Source: an uncultured Bacteroidales bacterium (GTDB lineage: Bacteria > Bacteroidota > Bacteroidia > Bacteroidales > UBA4417). Taken from it: 63,575 nucleotides of DNA. Shown piece after piece: positions 16,341-63,484 of this stretch. Under the pieces are notes generated by a model. The model saw nothing but the letters and a program-made list of their open reading frames with translations, ran no database searches and was not told the DNA's origin. The position numbers and the translations under genes are program-made. Within the stretch, counting starts at the first letter, position 1; every line of letters starts with the position of its first letter. The DNA lies in assembly GCA_903879715.1 (NCBI GenBank), contig CAIRMR010000017.1, positions 1 to 63,575 on the forward strand, in the 5' to 3' direction.

Positions 16341-16369
16341 GTTTGCTGAACCGGATTTTAGTGTGACTA

Positions 16370-16377: not shown

Positions 16378-16428
16378 TAGATTAATCTGCATGATTGGGG
16401 AATCGGAAAATTTTGAGCACAAAACAAA

Positions 16429-18840: not shown

Positions 18841-18844
18841 AACT

Positions 18845-19330: not shown

Positions 19331-19368
19331 GAAATTGGTTTTATTTAAGGAGATCTCAGAAAATTAAT

Positions 19369-19480: not shown

Positions 19481-19530
19481 AAAAAAGTTTATTTAACACC
19501 ATATTAACGACACTAAATTCACCCAATCCT

Positions 19531-20626: not shown

Positions 20627-20656
20627 ATAAAACAACGACTATTCTGGAATAAAACA

Positions 20657-20698
20657 CAGGAATACTTTGAATCATTGAAAAAGTTCAAAGAATTCCTG
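20657..20698 (+). terminator. prfB terminator hairpin
   Basis: CAGGAATACTTTGAA (20657-20671) pairs with TTCAAAGAATTCCTG (20684-20698) over 15 positions with a single A/A mismatch, followed by TTTCTGTTT. It lies 30 bases after the prfB stop. Confidence 0.75.
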
Positions 20699-47349: not shown

Positions 47350-48387
47350 TTACTGATAAGTATATTCCCAAACTTCGGTTGAATTGTCTGTGAGCGTCTT
47401 TGTTGCTTTTGATACTCTTTCTTTGGAATCAAAAGTATAAGTTAATCTTGATTTTGACTTAACAATTGGTGTTGACCTAGGGTCCCAGTATTCGAAATAA
47501 TCAACCAGTTTGGAACTTGGTTTTCCATAAAAATTACCGATTGGTTTCCAGTCAGAGTCAGTGGCATTAGCCTGGTGGATTCCATCTGAATTATCCCCGC
47601 TTGTGTACGTAAACTCTTTTATTTTTTTAGCAGTAACGCCGTCATCATCAAATGTCGTAATCTTGGTAATATTGCCATTAGTGATAGTCATCTGGTATTT
47701 TAAGTGACTTGCGGCATCCCAATATTCGTAGTACTTCACAAGGAAACCATTTGCATCGTATTCGTATGTATTACCGTCAGCATCTTCAGTAATGTAGCCT
47801 GACGAATTCAGATCATACGTTCCGTAAACAGTACTGGCATCCCTTTTCAGTGTCAATTTACCGGCAACTGAATAATCGTAAGTAATCGTTTTATCCAAAG
47901 CGCCTTCCCAGTAGTTTAGGAACTGTGATACTTTTTTGGTAGAAGCATCATATGAAAATTCCCATTTTTCAGTACCACCAGCCCATTCAGCAAAGAAAGA
48001 AATTGATTTGATAAGTGATGAGGTTGTAAATGTAACATCTTCGCCGTAGGAAGTTCCTTCACCATTAGTAGCATATGCTCTAACGTGATAAAGAGTGGCA
48101 GGAGTTAACCCAGTAATAGTGCTTGTAAATGTACCAGCTCCGGTACCATCAGTTGTTTTTGAATCAGCAATGGTAGGACTTGCAGCTGTGCCCCAGCAAA
48201 CACCACGGGCAATAACAGCAGATGTCCCTTCAGAAGTAACATTTCCACCTGAAATTGCAGAGGCTACTGTAAGTGATGAAATAGCTGTTGTTGTAACAGC
48301 AGGAGGATCGGATTTGTCCTTCTTGCACGAAGAGAAAGGAAAGGCCATGATAACAGCCAGAACAATAAAATAAATCTGTTTTTTCAT
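47350..48387 (-). CDS. Lipoprotein with FN3-like domain and YD-type beta repeats
   Basis: 345 residues. Lipobox VIMAFPFSSCKKD is at the N-terminus. Residues about 30-125 are an FN3-like module common in Bacteroidota lipoproteins: VTTTAISSLTVASAISGGNV, ARGVCWGTAASPTIAD and GLTPATLYHVRAYATNG. The rest is a string of beta hairpins (DYSVAGKLTLKRD, NTYEYDANGFLVKYYEYWD, NGNITKITTFDDDG, YTFDSKERVSKATK) of the DUF4595 / RHS-like YD type. The probable role is surface binding or adhesion, with no known ligand. It has a terminator and separates the slipin/citrate region from the ribose-type operon, whose last gene starts 50 bases upstream on the same strand, so it might be read through. Confidence 0.8.
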   Translation of the reverse strand: MKKQIYFIVLAVIMAFPFSSCKKDKSDPPAVTTTAISSLTVASAISGGNVTSEGTSAVIARGVCWGTAASPTIADSKTTDGTGAGTFTSTITGLTPATLYHVRAYATNGEGTSYGEDVTFTTSSLIKSISFFAEWAGGTEKWEFSYDASTKKVSQFLNYWEGALDKTITYDYSVAGKLTLKRDASTVYGTYDLNSSGYITEDADGNTYEYDANGFLVKYYEYWDAASHLKYQMTITNGNITKITTFDDDGVTAKKIKEFTYTSGDNSDGIHQANATDSDWKPIGNFYGKPSSKLVDYFEYWDPRSTPIVKSKSRLTYTFDSKERVSKATKTLTDNSTEVWEYTYQ

Positions 48388-48437: not shown

Positions 48438-49454
48438 CTAATTGTTACCGGCCATAATGATCATAGCCAATCCTGCAGTAAAAAGTAAAAACATAAATGC
48501 GAGTAATGTATTAACGGATTTGTTGGCACCTTTAAATTCCTTCCAGATAAATACACCCCAGAAAGCACCGATCATGGTAGCCCCTTGTCCAAGTCCGAAT
48601 GAAATAGCATATCCGGCTTTATTAGCTGCCAAAAGACTTAATGAAGTTCCTAAAGCCCAGACCATTCCACCAATAATTCCTGAAAGGTGGCTGCGGAAAT
48701 TACCTTCGAAATATTGCTTGAAATTAACCGGTGTTCCTTCAATTGGTTTCTTCATCAGGTAGGTATTGAAAAGGAAATTGCTGATTACAATCCCGATCAC
48801 GAAAAAGAAAAATGCAGCATATGGAGTAAGCTTACCGGCTTCGGATAACCCGGCTGCTGTAGCCTCAGGGTCAGTAGCAATAGCTTTGGCCACGAAACGG
48901 AAGAACCATGCCATCAAAAATCCGGCAGAAACTGAAAGAAGAATTCCTTTTGTGGATGTTTTCTTTTCGCTGATGGCGTGTTTTTTATAAGCCAGCGCAT
49001 CAAGAATAATAGCCACAACAACAATACCCACACCAATAAATAAAAGCATAGGATCGCCCTTTGGGGTGGCCATATAATTGATTAGTACTCCTAAAACCAT
49101 GCAAATCCCAACTCCAACCGGAAACGCAATAGCCATTCCGGCCACAGAAATAGCAGCTACCAACAGAATATTGGAAAGGTTAAAGATGATACCGCCTAAA
49201 ATGGGATTGAGAATACTGGAAGTACTTGCCTGTTTTATGCTTTCAACAAATCCCATCCCAACGCTTCCCGTGCTACCGAGAGTGAAACCAAATAGCAGGG
49301 AAAACAAGAGTATCCCAATAACATAATCCCAATAAAAGAGTTCGAAACGCCAGCTCTTAGCGGCCATTTTCTGTGTGTTGGCCCACGATCCCCAGCAAAG
49401 CATGGTAATAAAAGTGAGAACAACTGCCAGTGTGTAACTACTTACGATAAACAT
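48438..49454 (-). CDS. GRP/RhaT-type sugar or nucleoside permease
   Basis: 338 residues with about ten membrane segments of the drug/metabolite superfamily. Features are TFITMLCWGSWANTQKMA near the N-terminus, AFPVGVGICMVLGVLINYM, and FGLGQGATMIGAFWGVFIWKEFKG near the end, which is the GRP (glucose/ribose porter) and rhamnose-proton symporter pattern. In this operon it is the only inner-membrane transporter, so it should import the sugar (probably ribose) or nucleoside released by the upstream envelope enzymes. It is the last gene of the operon and starts 32 bases after the esterase gene. Confidence 0.85.
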   Translation of the reverse strand: MFIVSSYTLAVVLTFITMLCWGSWANTQKMAAKSWRFELFYWDYVIGILLFSLLFGFTLGSTGSVGMGFVESIKQASTSSILNPILGGIIFNLSNILLVAAISVAGMAIAFPVGVGICMVLGVLINYMATPKGDPMLLFIGVGIVVVAIILDALAYKKHAISEKKTSTKGILLSVSAGFLMAWFFRFVAKAIATDPEATAAGLSEAGKLTPYAAFFFFVIGIVISNFLFNTYLMKKPIEGTPVNFKQYFEGNFRSHLSGIIGGMVWALGTSLSLLAANKAGYAISFGLGQGATMIGAFWGVFIWKEFKGANKSVNTLLAFMFLLFTAGLAMIIMAGNN

Positions 49455-49486
49455 GGTTTTTAGTTTTAGTTAGTATTTAGTTATTG

Positions 49487-51049
49487 TTATTTGTGAAATC
49501 TTTTTGCTGTATAATTGATTATTTCCGGCAACCCAGCCATGAACCATTCAAATCCGCCATTGCCTTCCCTTACCCGGTATTCATGCGGCAGATCCTTGTC
49601 GCGTAAAAGCATATGCGCATTCCCGTTGCCTTTATAGAAATTGCCTTTATCAGGTGTATCTATAAAAAATGATGTCCGTTCAGGCGCTTTGGGTTTTGTT
49701 TCGGAAAACAAATCTTTCATCAAGTCATCAGGAAGAGATGCATCGCTGAGAATGCAGGCTGTAAATTGCTCCTGGCTTAATGCTATTGTGCATGCTTCGG
49801 TTGCTGCGGTCTGGAACCCAGCAATGGCGCGGAAATGGTAGCCTTTGCGGATTCTTAATTTTGCTTCAAGTTCAGGCAATGCAGTTTCTATATGAGTTAA
49901 AATATCACCAGGGAGAAAGACCAGAAGCATAGCGCACACTTTATTTTTCTTTATTTTATTGTCGACAGCTGCGGCGATTACTTTTTGCTGTGAGGCTGTA
50001 AAAGTGCCTGCAATATAAATGACCGGGTATAACCTATCTGTATGATCGTATTCGGCAGGAACATAAGCAAACGCCGTTTCATTCAGAACAGTTAACTTTT
50101 TAATTTGCTTTTCAGGCAATTCATTGTCGGAAGATTTAGCCGGGATATCACCCCGAAAGGATTTACCTTCAAATGCATCACTTATAAACCTGAGTGCGTT
50201 AGGCAATGATGAGCACCAGTACTGGAAACTGTGACCGCCATCCCGGACACGAAATTCATGTGGAATATTCAAACTGCGCATCAGAATATGCAATTCTTCG
50301 TTACTTCGGCAAAGCGTTTGTTCTTTGTCACCATTATCGATATAGATGTTCAGCTTTTTAATCTCGGATGCCGGCATCTGAGATAAGATGTAAAAAGGAC
50401 TATTCTGTTTGTAATACTCTGAAATTCTTTCCTTGCCTTTAAAGCCCGGCTCACCGAACAATCTACCCCACTGATCATCCCATCCAGAGGCATCTTCAGT
50501 CATATATTGCTCGTCGGTGCGGACCGAAATACTCAAAGGAACTGCCGATCCAAAAACATCCGGATGTTTCAGGTGAAGATTAAGAGCTCCAAATCCACCC
50601 ATGGAATAACCCATCAATGCTCGATTCTGCCTGTCGGCTTTGGTTCGGAAAAGGCTATCGATGTATGGAACCAGTTCTTTCACAAACATATCCTGGTAAA
50701 GAAATGATCCTTTATAGTCATTCACATAATAGGTACGGAAAGCTTCAGGCATCACAAAAACCATAGGCACTGTTTTATCAGTTTCAACTGATTTATCAGC
50801 ATACTGGCTGATCTGACCATATTCGAGCCACGAGGTTTCTTCATCACCAAGACCATGCAAAAGATAAACTACCGGGTACGACTTTTTGGAATCATAGTAC
50901 TCCTGAGGCAGGCAGACAGAAAAATGAACGTCCTGTTTCAGAATCAGGCTGTGCATAACCATGCTTTCCATAATCCGCAATCCTTGTGCAGCGAATGAAT
51001 TGCAGACCAGGAATACGCTAACGAAAAATATCAAAGCAGTTCTTTTCAT
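49487..51049 (-). CDS. Exported bimodular esterase, second module degenerate (copy A)
   Basis: 520 residues with a Sec signal (LIFFVSVFLVCNSFAAQ). The first half is an esterase D / feruloyl-acetylxylan esterase-type alpha/beta hydrolase: YPVVYLLHGLGDEETSW, Ser149 in GYSMGGFGAL, and the catalytic His in RVRDGGHSFQYW. The second half (from about residue 315) repeats the fold: YPVIYIAGTF, IAGFQTAATEA where the Ser elbow should be, and HEYRVREGNGGFEWF where the His should be. Both catalytic residues are lost. It starts 2 bases after the stop of the paralogous next gene. Substrate is probably an ester on the locus target. Confidence 0.85.
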   Translation of the reverse strand: MKRTALIFFVSVFLVCNSFAAQGLRIMESMVMHSLILKQDVHFSVCLPQEYYDSKKSYPVVYLLHGLGDEETSWLEYGQISQYADKSVETDKTVPMVFVMPEAFRTYYVNDYKGSFLYQDMFVKELVPYIDSLFRTKADRQNRALMGYSMGGFGALNLHLKHPDVFGSAVPLSISVRTDEQYMTEDASGWDDQWGRLFGEPGFKGKERISEYYKQNSPFYILSQMPASEIKKLNIYIDNGDKEQTLCRSNEELHILMRSLNIPHEFRVRDGGHSFQYWCSSLPNALRFISDAFEGKSFRGDIPAKSSDNELPEKQIKKLTVLNETAFAYVPAEYDHTDRLYPVIYIAGTFTASQQKVIAAAVDNKIKKNKVCAMLLVFLPGDILTHIETALPELEAKLRIRKGYHFRAIAGFQTAATEACTIALSQEQFTACILSDASLPDDLMKDLFSETKPKAPERTSFFIDTPDKGNFYKGNGNAHMLLRDKDLPHEYRVREGNGGFEWFMAGLPEIINYTAKRFHK

Positions 51050-51051
51050 TT

Positions 51052-52677
51052 TTAATTTCTAAGATGTGTTTTCATAAAGCCGGCGGATTCGTCAATGCCA
51101 TTCAGGAATGATTCATGTGAAGATGTTCCCTGGCGTACTCTGTATTCGTGTGTTAACTTATTGTGCCGCAGACTCAGGTAAAGCGAGTTGTATCCTGTAT
51201 AGTTAATTCCTTCGTCGCTTATATCCAGGTAATAACTGATGGCAGGATTAGTTGATGTAGCATCATTTGGCAAATTGGCATCGAAAAGCAGGCAGGCATT
51301 GATCAGATCAGTGCAATCAGGCATCAGTTCATAAGCTATCAGCCCGGCTTGCTTATTTCCAAGCAGTACTGTATGCTTGCTATCAGCCATAGTGCGGTAT
51401 TTTGTCCTCACCTGGCTGATTATCCGTTTAAGAACTTCTGCCGTAATAGATTCTGTTTGCAAAGGAATTTCGACAACCAGAGAATTTGGTATTTTATTGC
51501 TGATCATATCGGAGTTGAACATGGAAATCATGTTTTGTGATTCTTTATCCTGTGCTACTGCATTCCTGTCGTGCAGTGCAAGTATTACCGCATAGTGATT
51601 TGTATCAGATAAATATGCTGGCGGAACAGTTACACTAAAGTCAATCTCAGACCCATCAAGTTGTTCAGCAAAAATCCGTTCGGCCGGAATTGCCGCTCCA
51701 ACACTAACCGGTGTAGGATCATTTGGATATGTTATATTCTGAACAGCAGAGCTGATATATTTCAATGCTTCGGGCAATGATTTATGCCAATAATCCCAGG
51801 AATGGGCACCGTTTCTGACACGATATTCGTGTTTAATACCCAGACTGCGGAGCAGGTCGTGAAGCGCATCGTTAGTTTCGGAAAGACTTTCTTCATCATC
51901 ACCACAATCGAAAAAGTAATTCTGACCCTTTAAGGATTCGTCCCCTGGATTTTTAAAGAAATAAAACGGGCTATTCGCTTTAAAGTAGTTTGTTAAGCGT
52001 GCAGTTCCTGATGAACCAGAACCTCCAAAGATTGAACCCCACTGGGAATTCCAACCGTCCTGCGATTCGCTCATATATTGCTTGTCCGTGCGGAACGACA
52101 TACTCAAAACTACACCGGTATTAAATACATCCGGATTTTTAGCCGGTAAAATCAAAGCTCCGTAGCCACCCATCGAAAATCCCATTACTGCTCTTTGCTG
52201 AGGATCTTTTATGGTTCGGAACAGAGAATCAATAGTTGGAACCAACTCTTTGATGAACATATCCATGTAAGGAAATTTGCCATTGTATTTGTTTACCCAA
52301 TATGTATTGAAGCCCTGAGGCATGACGTATATCATTGGTATTGAAGCATTCGCATCAGAATAATAAGTGATAAGTCCGTATTTGTACCATGCTGTTTCGT
52401 CGTCACCAAAACCATGAAGAAGATAGACAACCGGGTAATTTGTATGCAAACTGTCGTACTCCTTTGGCAGTAAAACAGCGTAAGATATATCACGGTTCAG
52501 AATGTGGCTTTTCAAAGTCTGCTTCTCCAACAGCCTAACAAACTTTACGGTATCAACTGGAGGAACGGGAGGAAGAGGTTCAGGATCACGTTCACAGGCG
52601 GACAATCCCACTAAAAGCGTGAGAAACCCAAGTAACAAAAACGTGAAGTGTATTAAGCCTTTTCCTTTACTTTTCAT
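51052..52677 (-). CDS. Exported bimodular esterase lipoprotein, second module degenerate (copy B)
   Basis: 541 residues with a lipobox (FLTLLVGLSACERD). The first module has YPVVYLLHGFGDDETAW, nucleophile Ser in GFSMGGYGAL and His in RVRNGAHSWDYW. The second module repeats the fold from about residue 340, with VLLGNKQAGLIAYEL in place of the Ser elbow and HEYRVRQGTSSHESF in place of the His, so it is not expected to be catalytic. It overlaps the ADP-ribosylglycohydrolase gene by four bases (ATGA), implying translational coupling, and is paralogous to copy A. Lipid anchoring probably keeps it on the outer membrane. Confidence 0.85.
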   Translation of the reverse strand: MKSKGKGLIHFTFLLLGFLTLLVGLSACERDPEPLPPVPPVDTVKFVRLLEKQTLKSHILNRDISYAVLLPKEYDSLHTNYPVVYLLHGFGDDETAWYKYGLITYYSDANASIPMIYVMPQGFNTYWVNKYNGKFPYMDMFIKELVPTIDSLFRTIKDPQQRAVMGFSMGGYGALILPAKNPDVFNTGVVLSMSFRTDKQYMSESQDGWNSQWGSIFGGSGSSGTARLTNYFKANSPFYFFKNPGDESLKGQNYFFDCGDDEESLSETNDALHDLLRSLGIKHEYRVRNGAHSWDYWHKSLPEALKYISSAVQNITYPNDPTPVSVGAAIPAERIFAEQLDGSEIDFSVTVPPAYLSDTNHYAVILALHDRNAVAQDKESQNMISMFNSDMISNKIPNSLVVEIPLQTESITAEVLKRIISQVRTKYRTMADSKHTVLLGNKQAGLIAYELMPDCTDLINACLLFDANLPNDATSTNPAISYYLDISDEGINYTGYNSLYLSLRHNKLTHEYRVRQGTSSHESFLNGIDESAGFMKTHLRN

Positions 52678-54257
52678 TTTGCAGCTCCTGCCTGATTAGG
52701 ATCAAATTTCTTATTCGGTGAGTCACTATAAACAACATAGGATTTCATTGTAATCCTGAAATCAGGATTCTGATTCACCCATTTTATTTCAATTGTGTGA
52801 TCGCCGTTTTTCAACATGTATTTGTGATAGATATCGTATTTGCGTATAATGTAGTCGTAAGGCATGCGAACCTGCTCCGTCTTTACGCCATCAATGTACA
52901 CATCCAGCAAGGCTACAAAATCACTTTTTGCTACTCCGCACTGGCTTTTAACATTTCCCAGAACTACAATTCCGTTCCCGGTAAAATCCAGCTTGATACT
53001 TTCCTCAAGAAAATCTTTCCGAACCAACAACTCTTTGGTTGGATACATTCCCTCAAATGATTGTTCAAATCCCAGTATTTCAGGTTTCTGAACTTTAATG
53101 GTTATGTTGTTTTCCTTAACTTCTCCACCATTCTTAGCAATCAGGGTTGTAGCATGTTTGTAGCTCAGGTCATAAATCTGGTTCAAGGTAAGATCTGAAT
53201 AAGGGAATTTGATATCCTGCACTTTTTCAATAGCCGGTTTCCAGTAAGCGGGGATTTTGTCATAACCAAGCACAACACCGAGAATTCCTGCTGCAGTTGC
53301 CGGGTTACAATCGGAATCCTGCCCGCAGCGGGTTGAAATATCCATGGTTTTATAGAAATCCTTTTCACCATAAAGCAAGCCCATAGCCACATAGGCGGCA
53401 TTTACACTTGCATCAATATTGAATGCATTAAATACACCTTCGGGGCAACCTTTTTCTGATGTATGTTTCTTTTCAAATTCAAACCAGCATTGTTTCCAAT
53501 CCGTAGGATATTGTTTGTGCCATTTGATTACATCGCTGATAGCCTGGTAAAACTTACTTTTCTCAGGTATAGGTTTTAATCCCTGCTCTACAATAAAATC
53601 AATATCATCCGAAATAAATGCCGTTGAATACATAGCAGCCATAAAAACGCCGCCATACCAGCCATCACCGTAGTTCATGATATGCCCGGTGCGATCGCAG
53701 ATTTCGGAAGCGGTATTGATCATTCCCGGCGCCATCATTCCTGCAAAGTCGGCTTCGATCTGAAAATCAATATCGTCGGCATGAGGATTATTCATCCAGT
53801 TTCCGGAAGCAGGTGGCATAATTCCGTTCAGAATATTGTAACGGGCAGCCTGGTTGGCATGCCAGAGTTTATAATCATCTTTAGCAAATGATAAAGCAAA
53901 GGAATCAGCGGGAGCATCAAGGCCAACTCTTTCGAGCACATCAACGAAAGTTAAATCCATATATACATCATCGTACAAACCCGGATCCAGTTCATATAAT
54001 TCTTTGATATAATCATCGTACCATATCATTTGCTGGTAATCCTGGATCATGGTGCCCTTAAACTTGAATTCAGTAGGCCCGCCATACGTAACACCAATAG
54101 TCTGCCCTGCCCAGCCTCCTTTTATTTTATCTTTCAGAGCATCGGCTGTTAATGTAGCTTTTTCAGGAAGCACAGACAATTTCACCTTTTCACCTCCACA
54201 TGAAATGAGAAGCAAACTTATGGAAAGCATTAAAAAAATATTTCTTGCCTTTATCAT
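52674..54257 (-). CDS. ADP-ribosylglycohydrolase family lipoprotein (copy 1)
   Basis: 527 residues, lipobox LLLISCGGE. The all-helical ADP-ribosylglycohydrolase (DraG-like) domain begins DKIKGGWAGQTIGVTYGGP. It carries a GLYDDVYMDLTFVDVLE acidic motif, then NPHADDIDFQIEADF, and the metal-binding GQDSDCNPATAAG near residue 320. The family hydrolyses N- or O-glycosidic bonds to ADP-ribose or related ribosyl groups. A C-terminal jelly-roll-like domain from about residue 390 (LDFTGNGIVVLGNV, VALLDVYIDGVKTEQV, DHTIEIKWVN) may bind substrate. Export is unusual for a family best known for intracellular de-ADP-ribosylation. Confidence 0.88.
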   Translation of the reverse strand: MIKARNIFLMLSISLLLISCGGEKVKLSVLPEKATLTADALKDKIKGGWAGQTIGVTYGGPTEFKFKGTMIQDYQQMIWYDDYIKELYELDPGLYDDVYMDLTFVDVLERVGLDAPADSFALSFAKDDYKLWHANQAARYNILNGIMPPASGNWMNNPHADDIDFQIEADFAGMMAPGMINTASEICDRTGHIMNYGDGWYGGVFMAAMYSTAFISDDIDFIVEQGLKPIPEKSKFYQAISDVIKWHKQYPTDWKQCWFEFEKKHTSEKGCPEGVFNAFNIDASVNAAYVAMGLLYGEKDFYKTMDISTRCGQDSDCNPATAAGILGVVLGYDKIPAYWKPAIEKVQDIKFPYSDLTLNQIYDLSYKHATTLIAKNGGEVKENNITIKVQKPEILGFEQSFEGMYPTKELLVRKDFLEESIKLDFTGNGIVVLGNVKSQCGVAKSDFVALLDVYIDGVKTEQVRMPYDYIIRKYDIYHKYMLKNGDHTIEIKWVNQNPDFRITMKSYVVYSDSPNKKFDPNQAGAAK

Positions 54258-54296
54258 GTGTTTTTATTGCTTTTTGTAAATGACATTTTAATGAGG

Positions 54297-54411
54297 CTTT
54301 TGGTTTTGGGGGTTAGGGGTTAGTGGCGGTTTTGCGCAAAAGTGAAAAATATTGTATTTATATAAAAGTCCCTTTCTCCCGAAAACCCAACACCTAAACC
54401 CCAACACCTAT
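54297..54411. repeat. Palindromic word-repeat element inside the operon
   Basis: The left arm (about 54297-54327) reads TTTTGGTTTTGGGGGTTAGG, then GGTTAGTGG. The right arm (about 54378-54411) reads CCCGAAAACCCAACACCTAA, then ACCCCAACACCTA, its imperfect inverse. The central 50 bases are A+T rich; on the minus strand they include CACTTTTG, one mismatch from the -7 consensus. It fills the only sizeable gap (155 bases) between glycohydrolase genes. Confidence 0.6.
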
Positions 54412-54412
54412 T

Positions 54413-56047
54413 TTATTTTGGTAAATTACTTTCAGGTTGTTTCTCCGAATACACCATAATGTCGTTTATCCGGATTTCGTATTCCGGTTTTGGGTTGATC
54501 CATTTCAGCGTAACATTATGTTTACCTTCGGCCAGCTGGTATTTCCAGGCAGGTTCGAGGCGGCGGGAAGTATTTTTCATAGGCATTTTTACATGTTCAT
54601 CCAGCTTGCCATCAATATATATTTCAAGCTCAGCTACATAAGGATCTTCAGGTTCGGCCAGTCCGAAAACCTCAGAACCGACTCTTTTCGAAACGCGGTC
54701 GATATAATTTTTATCAATTTTCGAATTCTTCACGAGGTTTCCATAGAAAATGTAACCGTTTCCAACAAAGTCGTACGAAAGTTCATCGGTGAATGATTTG
54801 TCATACCTATCGCGGAAAACAGGGAAAGTCTTTTCGAAATTCTGCTCAAAAGCAACAGCGACAGGAGGTGCAAATGGAATTACAATTTTATTGCTGTCGA
54901 CTGTTCCGCCGGCAAGTTTAACCATTTCAGTAGCATGTCTGTAACTCATATCATAGGCTTTAGCCAGCGACATAGTTGTTCCCTCGAAATCCAACGGTTC
55001 AATTTCCTGCAATGGATTAAGCCAGAAGGTCGGAATTTTCGAATACCCAAGCATAACGCCGAGTACGCCTCCAACGGTTGCCGGGTTACAATCAGCATCC
55101 TGACCGCAACGGGTAGCAATATCGATGGATTTTGTAAAATCACCTTTACCGTACAAAAGCCCGATTGCCACATAGGCTGAATTTATTTTTGCGTCTATAT
55201 TAAATGACAGGAAACATCCTTTGGGGCAACCAACATCATTGTTCCATTTCTTTTGCAGCTCGAACCAGGTCGCCTGCCAATCGTTTGGATTTTGCTTATG
55301 CCATTTGATTACATCGGCAATGCAATCATGAAATTTTGTTCCTTCAGGAATAGTTTTAATAGCTTGTTCCACAATTTCGTTTGCATCATTTGAAACAAAA
55401 GCCAGTGAATACAAAGCCGAAACAAAAACGCCACCATAATACCCATCGCCGCTGTTCATGATATGCCCTACTCTATTGGCTATTTCGGTAGCTGAATTCA
55501 CCATACCGGGAGCCATTAAACCAATAAAATCGGCTTCAATCTGAAAATCAAGATCATCGGCATGCGGATTGTTTTTCCAGTTACCTGATTGCGGTGGCAT
55601 GATACCGTTCAAAATATTGTACCTCGAAGCCTGGTTTGCATGCGCCAGGTGATATGCCGTTCCGGCCCAGGAATTTGCAATAATATCTGTTGGGGCATTT
55701 AATCCGTATTTTTCGAAAACGGCGACAAAATTCAGATCTGTATAAATATCATCAAACAAGCCCGGTTTTTTATCCCACCAGTATTTCACATAACCTTCGC
55801 GCCACGGAATATTCTGATAATCAGGAATAATGGAGCCCTGGTATTTGAATTCGACAGGAGCACCATATACCACGCCAATCGTCTGACCAGCCCAGCCTCC
55901 TTTGATCTTGTCTTTTAACTGATCTGTTGTAAAAGTATTTTCAGTCAATGAAGCTTTACTGCCCGACTCTTTCTGTTTACAAGAAACCAGAGAAATCAGC
56001 AATATTGCCGCAACAAATCCAAAAACCTTCCTGATCCTATTTTGCAT
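54413..56047 (-). CDS. ADP-ribosylglycohydrolase family lipoprotein (copy 2)
   Basis: 544 residues, lipobox LLISLVSCKQKE. The catalytic domain closely parallels copy 1: DKIKGGWAGQTIGVVYGAP, GLFDDIYTDLNFVAVFE, NPHADDLDFQIEADF, GDGYYGGVFVSALYS and GQDADCNPATVGGVLGV. A C-terminal jelly-roll domain follows (LSYDFVGNGYIFYGNLV, AELEIYIDGKLDEHVKMP, KHNVTLKWINPKPEY). Copies 1 and 2 share about half their residues by eye and are a tandem duplication. It starts 14 bases after copy 3 ends. Confidence 0.88.
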   Translation of the reverse strand: MQNRIRKVFGFVAAILLISLVSCKQKESGSKASLTENTFTTDQLKDKIKGGWAGQTIGVVYGAPVEFKYQGSIIPDYQNIPWREGYVKYWWDKKPGLFDDIYTDLNFVAVFEKYGLNAPTDIIANSWAGTAYHLAHANQASRYNILNGIMPPQSGNWKNNPHADDLDFQIEADFIGLMAPGMVNSATEIANRVGHIMNSGDGYYGGVFVSALYSLAFVSNDANEIVEQAIKTIPEGTKFHDCIADVIKWHKQNPNDWQATWFELQKKWNNDVGCPKGCFLSFNIDAKINSAYVAIGLLYGKGDFTKSIDIATRCGQDADCNPATVGGVLGVMLGYSKIPTFWLNPLQEIEPLDFEGTTMSLAKAYDMSYRHATEMVKLAGGTVDSNKIVIPFAPPVAVAFEQNFEKTFPVFRDRYDKSFTDELSYDFVGNGYIFYGNLVKNSKIDKNYIDRVSKRVGSEVFGLAEPEDPYVAELEIYIDGKLDEHVKMPMKNTSRRLEPAWKYQLAEGKHNVTLKWINPKPEYEIRINDIMVYSEKQPESNLPK

Positions 56048-56061
56048 AGTGCTGTTCTGAA

Positions 56062-58053
56062 TTAATGGTAAACACTGAGTTCCGTTACCGAAGTAAATCC
56101 GGAAACCTGTTTTGTGTATTTATTCCAGTGACCTTCGATTTTAGCATCGCCGATAATACGGATAGCTTTGGTTTCGACAGGATCAAAACTGATAACATAT
56201 TCGACAAAGTGAGGCTGAAAAAAGACAATGTCAGTTTCTGGTAAGGGTGGTGCGATTAATGTTTTTTCAACAGGTGTCCATTTCCCGGCTTTATCCAGGT
56301 ATTGAACATTTAAGGAAGTAAACCATCCGCCAAATTCCTCGAGGCAACCGGTATGCAAGGCAAGCATACTTATTTTCTGAGGAGTTTTCCATCCATATCC
56401 GTAATAATCAACTTTGGGAATTCTTGTTTTTGCTGCCAGGCTGTAAAATACGGAACCGGCACCGGTTGTTATTCCATCGTAAATTACGTCAACAGATTTG
56501 GCATACATAGGTTTCCCGAAAGTGTACCAGCACGAATCGAGTACCTTTTCGTTTAGTTCACGAACATTTGCAAGAATAGTATCCGCAGTCGGCGCAATAT
56601 TAGTTCCCCGAACCAACAGGTTAAAATCCCTTGCAATTTTCTCCTTCCCGTTATCAAGCTGAAGCGCCAGTTTCGAATATCCGGGAACAGTAGGAATGCC
56701 CGTAAGTTTACCTTTATTAAAAATAAGGCCAGCAGGCAATGTACCTGAAACCAGGCTCCAGTTATACACTTTATTTGCCTCAGTATAAAAGTTGAAATCA
56801 ACCGGTTTGTTGATTTCCATTTGCGGTAAAGGTCCAAGGCAAAATTCAAGTGGCGGATTAAAAGCAGCCTCAGTATTAATAGTCAATATCTGGTTGCCGG
56901 GCTTTCCGCTTAATTTGCCGCCTTTTGAAACTACAAGGTCAATTGTGGCTTTCAATGTACGATCAATAATATCTGCTATGTTTGCGTCAGGCAGATCGTA
57001 TCGGGTAATGTTTATATACCTGTCGTTAAATGGCTTTTTCCAACCTTCGATAGGTAAACATAAGCTTTCCGGCAAGCCTTTCATTCCATTAATTACACCC
57101 ATTAAGCCGGCTACGGTGGCCGCCTGGTTGTCGGCATCAAAACCCATGGCACATGAAAGATCGAGTGTGCGTTGAAAATCGTTATCCCCATAAAGCATGG
57201 CCAGGATGGCACAAGCTCCATTCAGATTTGCATTCCAGATGGTTTTTGTCATAAGTGGCTCATTGACGTAATATTTCTGAGCCATTTCCTGCCTTGCGGC
57301 CTTCCAGTCACACGGATATTTTGCATGCAAGGCAATCATTTCCATGGCAGTAGCCGTAAACCGTCCATTGGCAGGCAAAGCTTTTATTCCTATTTCAATA
57401 AGCTGATTGATATCTTTCTCGAAATAAGCTGCTGAATACATAGCTCCATAAAAGATGGTTGGTTCAACACCCCATTCGTCGCTGGTAATGCGTGCAGCCC
57501 AGTCCGATTTGGATGCAGCATATTTAACCATTCCAGGAGCGGTAACAGCCCATATTTCATTAATAAGCTGTGGATCGATTTGGTACCAGTGCGGATTCAA
57601 TTCCTTACTTCCTGTAAAAGGCGGCGTGTAACCGAAATGCATCAGCCCAAGTGCGGCGCGGTTAGCCAGCCACACCCTGTCGCGGATATGGTACATCCAG
57701 GCTTCGCGAAGCTGAGTGTACGAAGGTTCTGAGCCAAATTTCTCCATCTGAAGCAGGTACATGTATTCAACGTCCGTATCATCGTCGGAAAAAGCACCTT
57801 CGTACTTTTTCAGTTTATCAAGGCTTTTGCTATATCCATATGGCCATTTTTCCGGACCGGGTTCTGCGACATATTTGTTTTCGTGCGGCAGACCGTACAT
57901 ATTGCCGATCATCTGTCCAATCCATTCGGCAGCAATTTTATCACGGAGCTCGCTTACTTTTATCCTGAGTGGTTTGCTTCCAATAGAATGAAGTGGAACA
58001 AAAGAAATTCCGGAAATAAAAAGCAGCAGTATAAATATTTTCTTAATCATCAT
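56062..58053 (-). CDS. ADP-ribosylglycohydrolase family exported protein with Ig-like and beta domains (copy 3)
   Basis: 663 residues with a Sec signal (IFILLLFISGISFVPLHSIG) and no clear lipobox. The glycohydrolase domain has DKIAAEWIGQMIGNMYGLPHENKY, key block AEWIGQMIGNMYGLP, with an intact acidic cluster AFSDDDTDVEYMYLL and the metal motif GFDADNQAATVAGLMG. It is thus a divergent third paralogue closer to the canonical DDT...DxD pattern. From about residue 400 comes a putative-Ig (He_PIG) domain (WSLVSGTLPAGLIFNKGKLTGIPTVPG, key SGTLPAGLIFNKG), then a discoidin-like beta domain. The gene starts directly at the SusD stop, so it is translated from the same transcript. Confidence 0.87.
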   Translation of the reverse strand: MMIKKIFILLLFISGISFVPLHSIGSKPLRIKVSELRDKIAAEWIGQMIGNMYGLPHENKYVAEPGPEKWPYGYSKSLDKLKKYEGAFSDDDTDVEYMYLLQMEKFGSEPSYTQLREAWMYHIRDRVWLANRAALGLMHFGYTPPFTGSKELNPHWYQIDPQLINEIWAVTAPGMVKYAASKSDWAARITSDEWGVEPTIFYGAMYSAAYFEKDINQLIEIGIKALPANGRFTATAMEMIALHAKYPCDWKAARQEMAQKYYVNEPLMTKTIWNANLNGACAILAMLYGDNDFQRTLDLSCAMGFDADNQAATVAGLMGVINGMKGLPESLCLPIEGWKKPFNDRYINITRYDLPDANIADIIDRTLKATIDLVVSKGGKLSGKPGNQILTINTEAAFNPPLEFCLGPLPQMEINKPVDFNFYTEANKVYNWSLVSGTLPAGLIFNKGKLTGIPTVPGYSKLALQLDNGKEKIARDFNLLVRGTNIAPTADTILANVRELNEKVLDSCWYTFGKPMYAKSVDVIYDGITTGAGSVFYSLAAKTRIPKVDYYGYGWKTPQKISMLALHTGCLEEFGGWFTSLNVQYLDKAGKWTPVEKTLIAPPLPETDIVFFQPHFVEYVISFDPVETKAIRIIGDAKIEGHWNKYTKQVSGFTSVTELSVYH

Positions 58054-59565
58054 TTACATCGGGGGATTTTGCACAAGGTTAGAATTAGCATCTAACACCG
58101 ATTGGGGTATAGGGAATAGCTTTGCATCAGGTCCTGAAGGAGGTTTGCTCCACCATGAGTTTCCCCAGGCTCCAAAGCGAATCATATCCTGCCGCCGATG
58201 GCCTTCCCAGGCAAATTCGCGCCCCAGCTCATCCAGAAATCCAGTTGTTGTTAAATCGGATAGCGTTAGTGGCGTCATCCCTGCTCTGGTTCTGATTTTT
58301 TGAAGATCCGGATTATTTATCATTTCACCGGCCCGATTAAGTCGCCATAAGGCCTCCAGTTTGGTATAAAGCACATCGGCATACCTGAAAAGCACATAGT
58401 CGTTTTCCATATCATTTACATAATACTGCAATCCGTCCTGGTATTGATATTTGCAGCAACGGGCACCCTCCCATTTTTTCCGGGCCATATAATTTTCTAC
58501 AGTAGGAGTGTAAATAAACGGCTCTCCATCAATAATAATATCTTTACCGCTTTTATCTTTTTGCTGACCAAACAGGAATGAATTTTTCCGAAGATCGTTA
58601 TCTGCATATTTATTCAGGAATCCCGGCTCGAGTATAAATTCGTCCCACATACCTCCTAAAAAATTAAAGGTGGCGCTGCTTGCATCATTCAGGGTAAGTA
58701 CGTACCAATAAAAATGATCCTTTGTCAGAACTGTTTCCATCGGTATTACAAAAATGTTTTCGCTTGAACCTTCGTTGTTAACTAAGAAATTTGAGAAAAA
58801 GTTATCTTCAATATGGTAGCTGTTAAGAGCTATTACCTTATCACAGGCATCAATGGCTTTCTGATTTTCATTTGTTCCTATCCATTCCTGGGCATTGAGA
58901 TACATTTTGGCCAGCAAGGTATAAGCCATTCCCTGGGTAACCCGTCCATAAAACTGGACTGTAGGTTTATCCTGAAGCTTATTGATATTGCTTAATATTT
59001 CGTTCTCTATAAAGGCAAACATAAATTTTCTGTCCTTTTGAACCGGAAGATTTTTGTCAGTAACATCAATGATATATTGAACGTTACCCCAATTATCCAT
59101 TGCCAAATAGTAATAATATGCTCGGAGAATTTTGATTTCGGCTGTTACCTGATCTTTGGCAGGAAAAGTAATAGGAGATGCTTCAATGGTATGAATGATC
59201 TGATTACAGGAAGCAATTCCCTGGTACACATTTTCCCAGGCAAGCGTAAGGATCTTGTTTGTAGGTTTTACCTGGTGTTTTTGGATTTCATCCCATCTTC
59301 CGTTGTCCCAAACCAAACCATCATCCCGCCCGGGAGCGACCATTTCGTCTGATGCCAGTTCATCCAGCGACCACAAGCTAAATTCTTCAGGATACTTTTG
59401 TAGTTTGGTGTAGGCAGTACCTGCATACATTAACATATCCTGCTCATTGTTAAAAAAAACGTCTATTGGAATATCCGAGTACACTTTCTCTTCAAGATCA
59501 GTACAGGATACCATCCCCAGAAAAACGGCCAGGAATATTGAGGCAAATAATATTTTATTTTTCAT
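58054..59565 (-). CDS. SusD/RagB family outer-membrane substrate-binding lipoprotein
   Basis: 503 residues from ATG 59565; the frame extends to a TTG at 59574. Lipobox FLGMVSCTDLEEKVYSD is typical of SusD proteins. Conserved blocks include VFFNNEQDMLMYAGTAYTKLQ, ENVYQGIASCNQIIHTIE, AEIKILRAYYYYLAMDNWG and LLAKMYLNAQEW; the C-terminus has FAWEGHRRQDMIRFG and LFPIPQSVLDAN. It caps the SusC transporter at the cell surface and captures the substrate. It lies 20 bases downstream of SusC. Confidence 0.95.
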   Translation of the reverse strand: MKNKILFASIFLAVFLGMVSCTDLEEKVYSDIPIDVFFNNEQDMLMYAGTAYTKLQKYPEEFSLWSLDELASDEMVAPGRDDGLVWDNGRWDEIQKHQVKPTNKILTLAWENVYQGIASCNQIIHTIEASPITFPAKDQVTAEIKILRAYYYYLAMDNWGNVQYIIDVTDKNLPVQKDRKFMFAFIENEILSNINKLQDKPTVQFYGRVTQGMAYTLLAKMYLNAQEWIGTNENQKAIDACDKVIALNSYHIEDNFFSNFLVNNEGSSENIFVIPMETVLTKDHFYWYVLTLNDASSATFNFLGGMWDEFILEPGFLNKYADNDLRKNSFLFGQQKDKSGKDIIIDGEPFIYTPTVENYMARKKWEGARCCKYQYQDGLQYYVNDMENDYVLFRYADVLYTKLEALWRLNRAGEMINNPDLQKIRTRAGMTPLTLSDLTTTGFLDELGREFAWEGHRRQDMIRFGAWGNSWWSKPPSGPDAKLFPIPQSVLDANSNLVQNPPM

Positions 59566-59585
59566 GATTGACAAGATGTTAACAG

Positions 59586-62549
59586 TTAGAATGATGCATT
59601 GATACCAAAAGATAACACTGTAGTTTTGGGGTAATAACTGAGGTATTCAATTCCAGGTGACAGCCCACTCATGTTTACTTCCGGATCCAATCCTTTATAC
59701 CCTGTGATACAAAATACATTCTGAACTGAAGCAGAAAGCCGTAGCCTTGAAATATATTTATTGATTAACTTAAAGTTATACCCCAATGCAATATTGTCAA
59801 GTTTAAGGAAACTTGCGTCTTCCACATATTTTGAAGAGTATTGGCCTGTGCCTATAAATTCAGGATGTTCCAGTTGTGTATAAACAATATTCTGTCCGAT
59901 GCTCTGCCAGTTTTCATAATAGAGGCGGTACATATTCAGCACTTTTCCTCCTATCTGTGAGCGGAGCGAAAAATTCAGATCCCAGTTTGAATAAGTAAAA
60001 GAGTTGCTCCATCCGAGCATGAACTTAGGATTAGCATTCCCAATCGGTTCCCAATCTTCGGTGCTTACCTGGCCTACTTTATTCTGGTTTTTGAATACAT
60101 CATGTCCGTAACCGTCAATTCCCAGCCACACGGGACCATAAAATGTTCCAAGGGGCTTTCCTTCTTCCAGTAATTGGCAATTCAGTGGGAATGAACCACC
60201 GAGCCATCCAACCGGCAGTGATGTAGACGTAAATTCATCATTCGAGAATTTTATTAATTTATTCACGTTTTTGCTGAAAGTAAATGTGGTATTCCAACTG
60301 AACTTCCCTTTTTCAAATGCTTTTGCATTCAACGTAAGTTCCAATCCCTGGTTACTAACTGAACCAACATTAGTGAATAAGGTATTTACAACGTACTGTC
60401 CACCAGTGGGTACATTATAATTGTAAAGCAAGTCACTACTCCACCGGTAATAGTAATCCACTGCTCCTGAAATCCGATTTTCAAGTATTGCAAAGTCAAT
60501 CCCGGCGTTAAATTCCTGCTTCTTTTCCCAGCGAAGATCCGGGTTGGGATTTGTTTTCGGTCGGTAGGTATTTATCCATTGTCCGTCATAGAAAAAACTG
60601 GAATTTAAGGCTCTTTCCATTAAACGCAATGATTTGTAAGAAGCGAAATCCTGATTACCGGTTACTCCAAATCCGACGCGGAGCTTTAGATCGCTAACCC
60701 ATTTCACATTCTTAATAAATTCTTCGCGATTAATACGCCAGCCCATACTTGCTGCCGGAAACCAGCCCCAGTCGTTATTTACACCAAATTTTGACGATCC
60801 TTCCCTGCGTAGTGAAGCAGAAGCAAGAAAGCGTTCGTCAAAATTATACATTACACGCCCGAAAAAAGAGATAAGCTGGCTTTGGTATTTATACGATCCC
60901 ATTTCGGCAGTACCATTAGTAAGTGCAGCTCCGGCACCCATATTATTCACACCATAATAGTCGAAATCGAAATCTGAATTGGCCATATAGTTATCATTGT
61001 ATATATTTTTCTGATAGGAATAACCAGCAAGAGCCTGTAAGGAATGTTTTCCGAATGTTGAAGAATAGTTGACTGTACTTTCGTAAAGCATATCAGTAGT
61101 ACGTCCGTTTTCAATATATGCTGATCCTCTGGCACCTATGATGCTAGGGTAATATTGGGTTTTGTAATCATTACTTTCCCAGTCTGATAAAGTATAGGAA
61201 AAAAAATTCGCCCAGTTCAAAGATTTAGTCAACCTTAGGGTTGCCCGGACATTCCCGTTTGCATCGTTTGTTTTTCCATCCTGAATCCGTTCGTTGAGCA
61301 TGGCTACAGGATTATAGAAATTTGCTCCTGGTAAATAGGTATATCCGCCATATTCTGCATTTGTTGGATCGTAAACCGGGCTCGTCGGGTTTCGGATAAA
61401 CGACTGGTAAAATACATCGTAATTGGCCGGTTTGTATTTGCGCAGACCATAGCTCAGGTTGTAATCCATCGTTAAAAGATTCCCCAAAGCTTTCTGGTTA
61501 ATATTAGTTTTTACCAGGAATTTATTTGACTGGTTATTTTTAAGCAGCCCTTCGGCCAGGTCGACGAAAATAGTAGTACGATGTGAAAAAGTTTCGTTGC
61601 CTCCTGATATTGCCAGGTTATGCTGCTGACTGAACGGGGTTGAACGTGTTACTTCTTTAAACCAGTCTACATTATCGGCATATATGCTGGATGCTTTTTC
61701 AGGGGCATAGGTGTTAATAGCAGATTTAAATTCATCGGCAGTAAGGTTCCTCACACCATGGGGGGCAACCTGTATTGAGAACTGACCCGAATATTCCACC
61801 TTGCTCTGCCCGGATCTGGCTCTTTTGGTTGTAATAATAATTACACCATTCGATCCGCGTGTTCCATAAATGGCTGCAGCTGATCCATCTTTCAGAACGT
61901 CCATGGACTCTACTTCTTCGGGACTGATGTTCTTCATATCAGCTCCGGCAACACCATCAATAATGATAAGTGGGCCCTGGCCCGAAGTTAGCGTATTAGT
62001 ACCTCGTAAAATAATGTTATAGCTCGCTTGCGGATCAGCTCCATCAGGCTTAACGATATTTAAACCGGCGACCTTTCCTTGTAAAAGCCCGATAGGACTG
62101 GTGAAAGTTCCTTTGTTAAACCCGTCTTCTTTTATTGTAGTTATTGCACCGGTTACTTCCTTCTTCGTCGTTTTTCCATACCCGATCACCACCACTTCAT
62201 CGAGCGAAGTAACTGACATTTTAAGGCCAATATTTAGTATAGTTTGGTTTTCAACCAGTATCTCTTGTTTTTCAAATCCCACCATTGAAAACACGATGGT
62301 GGCACCCTTATTGGTAGTGATAGTATATTTTCCATTAATATCGGTGATAATTCCGTTTTGGGTTCCTTTAACAGAGATGCTAACGCCTGGAATGCCGCTC
62401 TTATCGGAAACATCAGTAACCTGGCCGGTAATTTTTATAGGAGTACCTTCCTGTGAGAATACTGGTCCAGTAATCAATATAAGAATTATTACCACTAGTA
62501 TACTTGTCAATCGAAGTTTCATTTTTTCAAACAGCGTGTTTGCTTTCAT
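59586..62549 (-). CDS. SusC/RagA family TonB-linked outer-membrane transporter
   Basis: 987 residues. After the signal peptide (ILVVIILILITGPVFSQ) comes a carboxypeptidase-like regulatory domain (ITGQVTDVSDKSGIPGVSISVKGT, key GQVTDVSDKSGIPGV). The TonB-box-bearing VVVIGYGKTTKKEVTGAI, the plug domain with ILRGTNTL and IIDGVAGADMKNISPEEVESMDVLKDGSAAAIYG (key DVLKDGSAAAIYG), and a long 22-strand barrel ending in VLSFGINASF follow. It imports the ligand captured by SusD using TonB energy. ATG 62522 is a possible alternative start. The stop of ribokinase is 2 bases before its ATG. Confidence 0.95.
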   Translation of the reverse strand: MKANTLFEKMKLRLTSILVVIILILITGPVFSQEGTPIKITGQVTDVSDKSGIPGVSISVKGTQNGIITDINGKYTITTNKGATIVFSMVGFEKQEILVENQTILNIGLKMSVTSLDEVVVIGYGKTTKKEVTGAITTIKEDGFNKGTFTSPIGLLQGKVAGLNIVKPDGADPQASYNIILRGTNTLTSGQGPLIIIDGVAGADMKNISPEEVESMDVLKDGSAAAIYGTRGSNGVIIITTKRARSGQSKVEYSGQFSIQVAPHGVRNLTADEFKSAINTYAPEKASSIYADNVDWFKEVTRSTPFSQQHNLAISGGNETFSHRTTIFVDLAEGLLKNNQSNKFLVKTNINQKALGNLLTMDYNLSYGLRKYKPANYDVFYQSFIRNPTSPVYDPTNAEYGGYTYLPGANFYNPVAMLNERIQDGKTNDANGNVRATLRLTKSLNWANFFSYTLSDWESNDYKTQYYPSIIGARGSAYIENGRTTDMLYESTVNYSSTFGKHSLQALAGYSYQKNIYNDNYMANSDFDFDYYGVNNMGAGAALTNGTAEMGSYKYQSQLISFFGRVMYNFDERFLASASLRREGSSKFGVNNDWGWFPAASMGWRINREEFIKNVKWVSDLKLRVGFGVTGNQDFASYKSLRLMERALNSSFFYDGQWINTYRPKTNPNPDLRWEKKQEFNAGIDFAILENRISGAVDYYYRWSSDLLYNYNVPTGGQYVVNTLFTNVGSVSNQGLELTLNAKAFEKGKFSWNTTFTFSKNVNKLIKFSNDEFTSTSLPVGWLGGSFPLNCQLLEEGKPLGTFYGPVWLGIDGYGHDVFKNQNKVGQVSTEDWEPIGNANPKFMLGWSNSFTYSNWDLNFSLRSQIGGKVLNMYRLYYENWQSIGQNIVYTQLEHPEFIGTGQYSSKYVEDASFLKLDNIALGYNFKLINKYISRLRLSASVQNVFCITGYKGLDPEVNMSGLSPGIEYLSYYPKTTVLSFGINASF

Positions 62550-62551
62550 GT

Positions 62552-63484
62552 TTAAGATTTTACTTGTTCAACATCAAGTGATGATAATTCGGAACGATAA
62601 GGAATTGATGCCTGGGCACCCATGCGTGTAACCGTAATTGCGGCTGCGCGTGCGGCCAGTTTAACAGCTTCCGGGATTGTTCTTCCTTCTGAAAGCCCAA
62701 CACAAAAAGCGCCACAAAATGTATCACCAGCCGCGGTTGTATCCAGGGCATCAACCTTGAAAGCTTCGACAAAAAGATATTCATTATATTCCTTTATTAA
62801 AGCGCCCTGCGAACCAAGCGTGATTACAACTATGTCAACACCTTTGGCACTGATAATGTCAGCAGCCTGTTTGGCGGAGTCAATATCAGACACTTTTATT
62901 CCGGAAAGGATTTCTGCTTCGCTCTTATTAGGAATTATAATATACAGGTGTTTAAGCAGGTTATCAGATAATGCTCTAGCCGGGGCTGGGTTGAGAATAA
63001 CTTTTATTCCCTTTTTACTAGCCATCTCTGCAACATACTCAACTGTATCAATTGGAATTTCAAGTTGCATCAGAACAAGATCACAGTTTTCAATTTCGGC
63101 ACTTGCTTTATCAATATCCGAAGGAGTGAGATAAGCATTAGCACCGGAAGCGACCACAATACAGTTTTCGCCCTGCGAATCTACGGTTATCAAAGCAACT
63201 CCCGAAGGATGCTTAGGGTCCGAATAAATATAATCTGTTTTAATGTTTTCAGCTGTATACAACATTACCGACTGCTTTCCAAAAACATCATTCCCTGTTT
63301 TGGAAATCAACGTTACATTTCCTCCCATCCGCGATGCGGCAACAGCCTGGTTTGCTCCTTTGCCGCCAGGATTCATGAAAAAGGTTCCACCTAAAATAGT
63401 TTCACCAGGTACAGGAAGCCTGTCCGCCTTAATTACCATGTCCGTATTACAACTTCCTACGACAACGATTTTTTTTGATTGCAT
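62552..63484 (-). CDS. rbsK: Ribokinase
   Basis: 310 residues of the PfkB family. IVVVGSCNTDMVIKADRLPVPGET, key VGSCNTDMV, and NPGGKGANQAVAASRMGG are the substrate-binding signature of ribokinases. The C-terminal signature is DALDTTAAGDTFCGAF with the catalytic Asp, and IVVITLGSQGALI is the nucleotide-binding strand. It phosphorylates ribose to ribose 5-phosphate in the cytoplasm. As first gene of the operon, it is the best clue that ribose is what the system harvests. A perfect -7 box lies 22 bases upstream. Any regulator would be beyond the right edge of the window. Confidence 0.94.
   Translation of the reverse strand: MQSKKIVVVGSCNTDMVIKADRLPVPGETILGGTFFMNPGGKGANQAVAASRMGGNVTLISKTGNDVFGKQSVMLYTAENIKTDYIYSDPKHPSGVALITVDSQGENCIVVASGANAYLTPSDIDKASAEIENCDLVLMQLEIPIDTVEYVAEMASKKGIKVILNPAPARALSDNLLKHLYIIIPNKSEAEILSGIKVSDIDSAKQAADIISAKGVDIVVITLGSQGALIKEYNEYLFVEAFKVDALDTTAAGDTFCGAFCVGLSEGRTIPEAVKLAARAAAITVTRMGAQASIPYRSELSSLDVEQVKS

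Follow-up and report, generated by a model that had tools for sequence, protein, structure and literature searches.

A SusCD locus joining ribokinase, three ADP-ribosyl-hydrolase-fold proteins and two bimodular esterases, a candidate system for ribose harvest in Bacteroidota

We analysed a stretch of 63,575 nucleotides (hereafter the window) that makes up contig CAIRMR010000017.1 of an uncultured Bacteroidales bacterium (assembly GCA_903879715.1). Towards its right end lies a run of nine genes, from a ribokinase gene (RK) through SusC, SusD, three proteins of the ADP-ribosyl hydrolase (ARH) fold (ARH1, ARH2, ARH3) and two CE1-type esterases (EstA, EstB) to a GRP-type permease (GRP), here called the cassette (Table 1). 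An earlier note, made from the letters alone, had named these genes as a ribose-scavenging locus aimed at ADP-ribose. Its open reading frames, strand and gene families were all recovered, the latter by profile searches, as were its gaps of -4 to 32 bases with one of 155 (recomputed from RK to GRP: 2, 11, 0, 14, 155, -4, 2 and 32 bases), the inverted repeat in the longest gap and the bimodular build of the esterases; the "eight genes" that it proposed to follow number nine. SusC and SusD are adjacent and accompanied by enzymes with export signals, as in SusCD polysaccharide utilization loci. As judged by eye and by a simple pattern rather than a signal-peptide predictor, a lipobox is present in SusD, ARH2, ARH3 and EstA; ARH1 and EstB have none and start with a Sec-like N-terminus. 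The Sec signal that the earlier note assigned to the third ARH copy therefore fits ARH1, ARH3 being a lipoprotein. The conserved unit is larger than nine genes: it includes FN, 50 bases beyond GRP, which recurs in relatives' cassettes, and is adjoined by CitMHS, 215 bases downstream of FN. FN gave no match in the Pfam search, and its N-terminal match to NF049889 is far under the cut-off. Upstream of RK stands an element, TATATTTG, which we take to resemble the -7 box of Bacteroidota promoters, and an Rfam scan of the window returned one tRNA as its sole match.

Table 1. Features of the locus, in contig positions (1-63,575); all are read on the minus strand.
Feature	Position	Strand	Evidence
Region upstream of RK to contig end	63485-63575	-	TATATTTG element, presumed -7 box likeness
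RK, ribokinase	62552-63484	-	TIGR02152 384.7 bits (cut-off 299.65); NF008353 359.6 (cut-off 341)
SusC-type TonB-dependent transporter	59586-62549	-	TIGR04056 736.8 bits (cut-off 368.25)
SusD-type lipoprotein	58054-59574	-	PF07980, PF14322; lipobox in sequence
ARH1, ARH-fold hydrolase with middle beta region, C-terminal CBM32-like module and Sec-like N-terminus	56062-58053	-	PF03747 88 bits
ARH2, ARH-fold lipoprotein with C-terminal beta domain	54413-56047	-	PF03747 131.9 bits
Gap ARH2/ARH3, 155 bases, inverted repeat	54258-54412	-	Sequence, by eye only
ARH3, ARH-fold lipoprotein	52674-54257	-	PF03747 130.2 bits
EstA, CE1-type esterase lipoprotein, bimodular	51052-52677	-	PF00756
EstB, CE1-type esterase, bimodular like EstA	49487-51049	-	PF00756
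GRP/RusT-like inner-membrane permease	48438-49454	-	PF07168 80.7 bits; RhaT weak
FN, lipoprotein, tenth cassette gene	47350-48387	-	Presence in relatives' cassettes
CitMHS, citrate:proton-symporter-family transporter	45848-47134	-	TIGR00784 544.1 bits (cut-off 259.7)

A scan of 84,980 species genomes with ARH2 returned 353 stretches with a relative, and the best 80 of these 353 (loci numbered with the prefix L) were compared by six-frame open reading frames and BLASTP. Of the 80, 67 encode SusC, SusD or EstA on the strand of the query and are called cassette-type; the other 13 are non-cassette. The synteny sought in the earlier note is indeed conserved across Bacteroidota genomes: in 65 of the 67 the genes follow the order RK-SusC-SusD-ARH1-ARH2-ARH3-EstA-EstB-GRP (exceptions L067 and L085), and an uninterrupted run from RK to GRP in 37 of the 67, many others being cut by contig ends, rules out the ribokinase as a chance neighbour. 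Record titles and tree labels place the carriers in Bacteroidales, Chitinophagaceae, Ferruginibacter, Cyclobacteriaceae, Flavobacteriaceae, Gelidibacter and Lutibacter. The cassette is rare in even genome samples: ARH1 was matched at E <= 1e-80 in 2 of 395 genomes of the class (the bacterium's own and one partial match at 40% identity) and at full strength in 7 of 295 genomes of the order, its own included, with one further partial match at 44%. In a tree of 57 proteins the ARH1, ARH2 and ARH3 paralogues of different orders form separate sets, with support of 97/93 for the ARH3 set and only 64/75 for the ARH2 set, while the ARH1 set encloses a protein of L085. That locus, from Parapedobacter koreensis, is a mix of RK, GRP, distant SusC homologues, ARH1-like and ARH3-like proteins and a nucleoside hydrolase.

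The ribose side of the locus is defined by kinase, regulator and permease. The window kinase scores above two ribokinase equivalog cut-offs, and the divergent gene upstream of RK falls into one cluster at 39 of the 80 loci and at 33 of the 47 cassette loci in which that side is visible; the remaining 14 upstream neighbours are CitF (9), a LacI-type regulator (4) and a nucleoside hydrolase (1). The L007 member of the cluster reaches 651 bits on the NCBIfam model "BT2802 family ribose utilization protein" (cut-off 550), and the same model matched all of 12 carrier genomes, 10 of them over the cut-off (those of L039 and L074 lie below). LacI-type regulators take the place of the BT2802 family at L061, L062, L063 and L065, that of L063 best matching RbsR models, under their cut-offs. 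Because the window contig ends 91 bases before RK and the BT2802/RusR-family gene of the same genome lies 197 bases from the start of contig C51, the contig break most likely falls between the two. RusR controls BT2803-2809 in Bacteroides thetaiotaomicron, where RusT has been proposed to transport ribose (PMC12596196). GRP permease homologues with 55-91% identity occur in RusR-headed loci; the likeness of the permease and the other cassette proteins to their B. thetaiotaomicron counterparts is one of shared families, not of alignment to BT2809 or other BT sequences. The loci around RusR genes of the order run RK-ARH-GRP (L166), RK-ARH-nucleoside hydrolase-GRP (L167), RK-nucleoside hydrolase-ARH-GRP (L174), RK-nucleoside hydrolase-GRP-SusC-SusD (L173) and RK-RK-GRP-nucleoside hydrolase (L171, ended by its contig), and include four window-type cassettes, L172 and L168, L169 and L170, the last three being the same DNA as L030, L015 and L069. 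The distant RusR homologues at L175 and L176 have no such ribose genes alongside. ARH members outside cassettes thus also accompany ribokinase, and in the tree the ARH3 clade joins the ARHs of these minimal ribose loci (fork 92/90, not starred). With ribokinase, a RusT-like permease and, in relatives, a divergent regulator of the BT2802 (RusR) family recurring together, the description as a ribose-scavenging SusCD locus is supported, and the cassette reads as a ribose-utilization (rus-type) SusCD locus; the conserved set of about ten genes probably serves ribose harvest in diverse Bacteroidota.

Next, we examined the three ARH-fold proteins, whose PF03747 scores all lie above the cut-off of 26.2 bits. 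Of the three structures that the earlier note had proposed to predict, models were made for two, and both gave ARH-family fold matches. The AlphaFold2 model of ARH2 (pLDDT 92.0) matched Tri1, ARH3 and DraG in Foldseek at 11-17% identity among the rows shown, so that its predicted structure places it surely in the ADP-ribosyl hydrolase fold, and the ARH1 model (pLDDT 82.9) matched CBM32s and sialidase modules, which its C-terminal module resembles, besides ARH3. Sequence searches of the PDB gave weak matches for ARH1 and ARH2 alone, while an ARH2 profile found Tri1, MJ1187 and DraG. Motifs were counted over residues 31-400 in 198 full-length proteins, namely the three of the window and others from the scan loci, among them a dozen ARH2/ARH3-type proteins from loci without the full cassette. 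The canonical members aligned with the cassette enzymes were two PF03747 proteins that the same genome encodes and six from the PDB (MJ1187, Lmo0067, Tri1 and coelacanth, mouse and human ARH3); a search of viral contigs for further canonical controls found none. The strict patterns TDDT and G.G..MR proved too narrow, as SDDS occurs in Lmo0067 and in the bacterium's own protein on contig C103, and a looser MR region in MJ1187 and Tri1. Looser patterns fit every canonical protein aligned, and still neither [TS]DD[TS], the N-terminal metal site, nor [GS]x[GAN]xx[MI]R, a loose GxGxxMR-type motif between the metal sites that presumably serves in ADP-ribose binding, occurs in any of the 198 (0/198 each, against 2/2 own canonical and all six PDB proteins). 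The acidic metal-site residues, with paired aspartates, are kept in the cassette ARHs, as are the G.P.E glutamate of the first motif (198/198) and an FDDxYxD-type motif in all 137 ARH2 and ARH3 proteins; the second site reads D[AS]D[CN] in 183 of 198 and D[TAS]D[TS] in 8. Judged by these motifs, the cassette ARHs seem to lack the ADP-recognising part. In the Pfam scan none of the cassette proteins proved to be a Nudix protein, phosphatase or nucleotidase (FN being without a Pfam match), and the 25 Pfam families most frequent in 108 flanking proteins include none either, the histidine-pathway phosphoribosyl-ATP pyrophosphohydrolase aside (a further 103 less frequent families lie outside this count); the cassette would thus leave ADP-ribose without a route down to ribose for the ribokinase.

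Further ARH relatives lie in the same genome. On contig C193 (L091, 9724-11355), an ARH3-like protein of 39% identity groups in the tree with the ARH of RusR-headed L174 and has neighbours that look by eye like sugar-degradation genes. Contig C103 (L090, 1709-2860) encodes a short ARH of the canonical type whose relatives occur in 17 phage records and whose neighbours look, again by eye, phage- or plasmid-like.

Both esterases carry GxSxG within the first 330 residues throughout their families (EstA 57/57, EstB 51/51), as in CE1 enzymes, and hardly ever beyond it (2/57 and 1/51). Their nearest PDB entry is 7xrt, a ferulic acid esterase (1e-40 for EstA, 1.3e-45 for EstB). HHalign aligned module 2 with module 1 as a second copy at 99.44% and 99.75%, and in the window EstA and EstB this copy is degenerate, its serine motif gone.

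Many cassettes have carboxylate genes at their edges. Here 67 loci with SusD, EstA, or both ARH1 and ARH2 were considered, 58 of them with an informative side, and a carboxylate neighbour was defined as DASS, CitMHS, CitDE or CitF within three genes downstream or two upstream. Of the 58, 44 loci (35/51 downstream, 9/47 upstream) have a DASS or CitMHS transporter, a CitDE-CitF lyase or both as neighbours. This count is biased somewhat upward, as five downstream positives have flanks under 2.5 kb, too short for a negative to have been scored (30/46 downstream without them). CitMHS stands in the same place in L007, L029, L069 and L071, so that in the window's clade it occupies what is the DASS slot of others; the nearest PDB entries to the L012 DASS are human-type NaDC3, SLC13A2 and NaCT. 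None of the 13 non-cassette loci has adjacent carboxylate genes, several of these loci being short and one, L068, a cut cassette. In L022, from a Prolixibacteraceae genome, a GH106-like protein lies between FN and CitDE (18702-20666, plus strand). At genome level, citF was searched in 45 cassette and 4 other genomes, drawn from 50 of the 80 loci, and passed the cut-off in 34 of the 45 and none of the 4. In the order sample it was found in 7 of 7 cassette genomes and 117 of 288 others (Fisher p = 0.002, uncorrected for kinship). We dropped a p-value of about 1e-36 (34/45 against a class baseline of 5/395 over 400 bits), since citF occurs in 124 of 295 genomes of the order and most of the class-wide enrichment is therefore kinship. 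At L021, the single locus scanned, the scores were 501.5 bits for citF (cut-off 501.45), 252.5 for citE (443.4) and 56.9 for citD (63.5). On this linkage the esterases may release a di- or tricarboxylate; the link to carboxylate genes is new and of moderate strength.

The lyase bears on the identity of the acid. CitG, which provides the prosthetic group of citrate lyase, was found neither in the bacterium's own genome nor in 34 of the 38 relatives searched, a set made up of 34 with citF and four others. The four relatives with CitG (L214-L217) each carry another citF, scoring 590-601 bits, on the contig that holds CitG, and full-length CitF proteins of the order fall into two score classes, about 590-631 and about 434-486 bits, CitG standing beside the higher-scoring kind in these four genomes. 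The lyase linked to the cassette is thus unlikely to be a citrate lyase of the classical type, and the lower-scoring kind may act on a different substrate or mature differently. The missing CitG weakens the case for citrate as the acid set free, and we retain "a di- or tricarboxylate".

Taken together, we favour, at a probability of about one half, a variant ribose-utilization system whose ribose comes from a ribofuranosyl glycan or conjugate bearing ester groups. SusCD would bind and import a ribose-bearing oligomer, EstA and EstB would strip its acyl groups, and ARH1-3 would cut the ribofuranosyl links to yield free ribose, which the GRP/RusT-like permease would take inward and ribokinase convert to ribose 5-phosphate. 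The BT2802/RusR-family regulator, here beyond the contig break, would control the unit, and in many relatives the DASS/CitMHS transporter and/or the CitDE-CitF-type lyase would import and split the carboxylate freed by the esterases. The simplest reading of the ARHs, from family, motifs and gene context, is that they are secreted ribofuranosidases releasing free ribose from such an acylated material. Of this model, computation shows the gene families, their conserved order, the regulator, the linkage to carboxylate genes, the loss of motifs and the CBM32-like module, while all enzyme activities, free ribose as product, the ester-bound carboxylate and the natural substrate are inferred. A bolder form, in which the polymer or conjugate is new to science and carries ester-linked di- or tricarboxylates, the ARHs are the first secreted ribofuranosidases of their fold and the CitG-less CitDE-CitF is a lyase for the acid concerned, we consider doubtful. 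A literature search, judged mostly by titles and the starts of abstracts, found no paper on this cassette.

Several observations weigh against the favoured reading, besides the bias in the neighbour count. No naturally occurring ribofuranosyl ester of the kind required is known to us, and "ribofuranosidase" had no match in the literature searched. Loss of the motifs does not prove loss of ADP binding, nor is the change total, as eight of the 198 proteins keep D.D[ST] at the second site and ARH1 retains the SDD of the first motif (61/61) and, with SDDD, is nearer to the canonical form at this site. On the carboxylate side, 8 of the 51 loci with a visible downstream side lack a carboxylate neighbour both there and upstream, 11 of the 45 cassette genomes lack citF over the cut-off, the gene's commonness in the order makes the genome-level co-occurrence weak, the window genome's own CitDE-CitF lies on another contig, and the missing CitG speaks against citrate. 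A hairpin-like stretch between FN and CitMHS, seen by eye, means moreover that CitMHS may form its own transcription unit. These carboxylate points feed an explanation that rivals only that step and is compatible with the rest, namely that transporter and lyase are adjacent for other metabolic reasons and the acid is no part of the substrate. We take it seriously while leaning slightly the other way: citF without the cassette, the CitG gap, the hairpin and the eight loci without neighbours agree with it, but the linkage comes in two arrangements (downstream of the cassette and, at nine loci, upstream of RK), CitMHS fills the DASS slot and the non-cassette loci, several of them short, have none of these genes (0/13).

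The favoured ribofuranosyl reading also competes with three other substrates. Like B. thetaiotaomicron rus, which is thought to scavenge ribose from nucleosides and nucleic acids, the cassette could be a nucleoside scavenger in which ARHs replace nucleoside hydrolases and the esterases have modified nucleosides as substrates or an accessory role. The RusR-type regulator fits, and nucleoside hydrolase and ARH occur together in L072, L074, L076, L078, L079, L080, L081, L167 and L174; yet the window cassette has no nucleoside hydrolase, only L067 and L085 of the 67 cassette-type loci do, and neither the pair of CE1 esterases nor the presence of three hydrolases, the CBM32-like module or the carboxylate genes is accounted for, which makes this reading unlikely. 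Improbable, too, is a glycan of another pentofuranose, with the kinase acting on a different sugar and the ARH-fold enzymes as its furanosidases: the ARH3-like relative of L091 among sugar-degradation-like genes and the nearness of the esterases to ferulic acid esterases are in its favour, whereas the kinase passes two ribokinase equivalog cut-offs and the regulator belongs to a ribose-utilization family. The target that the earlier note preferred, extracellular ADP-ribose (as NAD, poly-ADP-ribose or ADP-ribosylated protein) freed by the ARHs while the esterases cut ester-linked ADP-ribose, draws on the PF03747 scores of all three ARHs, the fold matches to DraG and to ARH3 with ADP-ribose, the retained acidic residues and G.P.E glutamate and the ribokinase in the operon, but it is a poor candidate given the two canonical motifs missing in 198/198, the lack of Nudix, phosphatase or nucleotidase in the cassette and the commonest flanking families (the histidine-pathway enzyme apart), a ribokinase that needs free ribose, the CBM32-like module on ARH1 and carboxylate genes left without explanation.

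Elsewhere in the window lie a gingipain-like C25 peptidase that has a propeptide and a sorting domain for type IX secretion (12408-16427, minus strand), an adjoining M14 carboxypeptidase gene (10616-12253) and a protein like sulfide dehydrogenase flavoprotein (FCSD; 36058-37341, minus strand).

If the favoured ribofuranosyl reading is true, the ADP-ribose-hydrolase fold has been recruited for carbohydrate degradation, and a ribose-bearing material used by Bacteroidota of lakes, sediments and digesters awaits identification, which induction of the cassette and its enzymes would reveal. The annotation "ADP-ribosylglycohydrolase" in such loci should not be taken as a sign of ADP-ribose metabolism. 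A 2020 ribose-utilization paper in Cell Host Microbe (Glowacki et al.) reportedly mentions loci with ADP-ribosylglycohydrolases.

Among known systems the closest is B. thetaiotaomicron rus (BT2803-2809 with RusR), which shares ribokinase, SusC, SusD, permease and a RusR-family regulator with the cassette (PMC12596196, PMC10434189); the cassette in contrast lacks a nucleoside hydrolase and adds three ARHs, two bimodular esterases, FN and a carboxylate transporter nearby. The minimal RK-ARH-(nucleoside hydrolase)-GRP loci (L074, L078, L079, L166, L167, L174) resemble the cassette in the families of their kinase, permease and regulator and in having an ARH3-like enzyme, with no SusCD, ARH1, ARH2, esterases or carboxylate genes seen there. 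With the canonical ADP-ribosyl hydrolases (DraG, ARH1, ARH3, Tri1) the cassette ARHs have in common the fold, the acidic metal-site residues and the first-motif glutamate, but at 11-17% identity, with two motifs lost, export signals and additional domains at the C-terminus. CE1 ferulic acid esterases (7xrt, 5vol) correspond to the first esterase module with its GxSxG, to which the cassette enzymes add a degenerate second domain copy without the serine motif. Staphylococcal SERP2216-2218 also sets an ADP-ribosylglycohydrolase, a permease (of purine/cytosine type) and a ribokinase side by side, though in another phylum and with another permease family, and the passages cited name no SusCD or esterases there (PMC3637587, PMC3321955).

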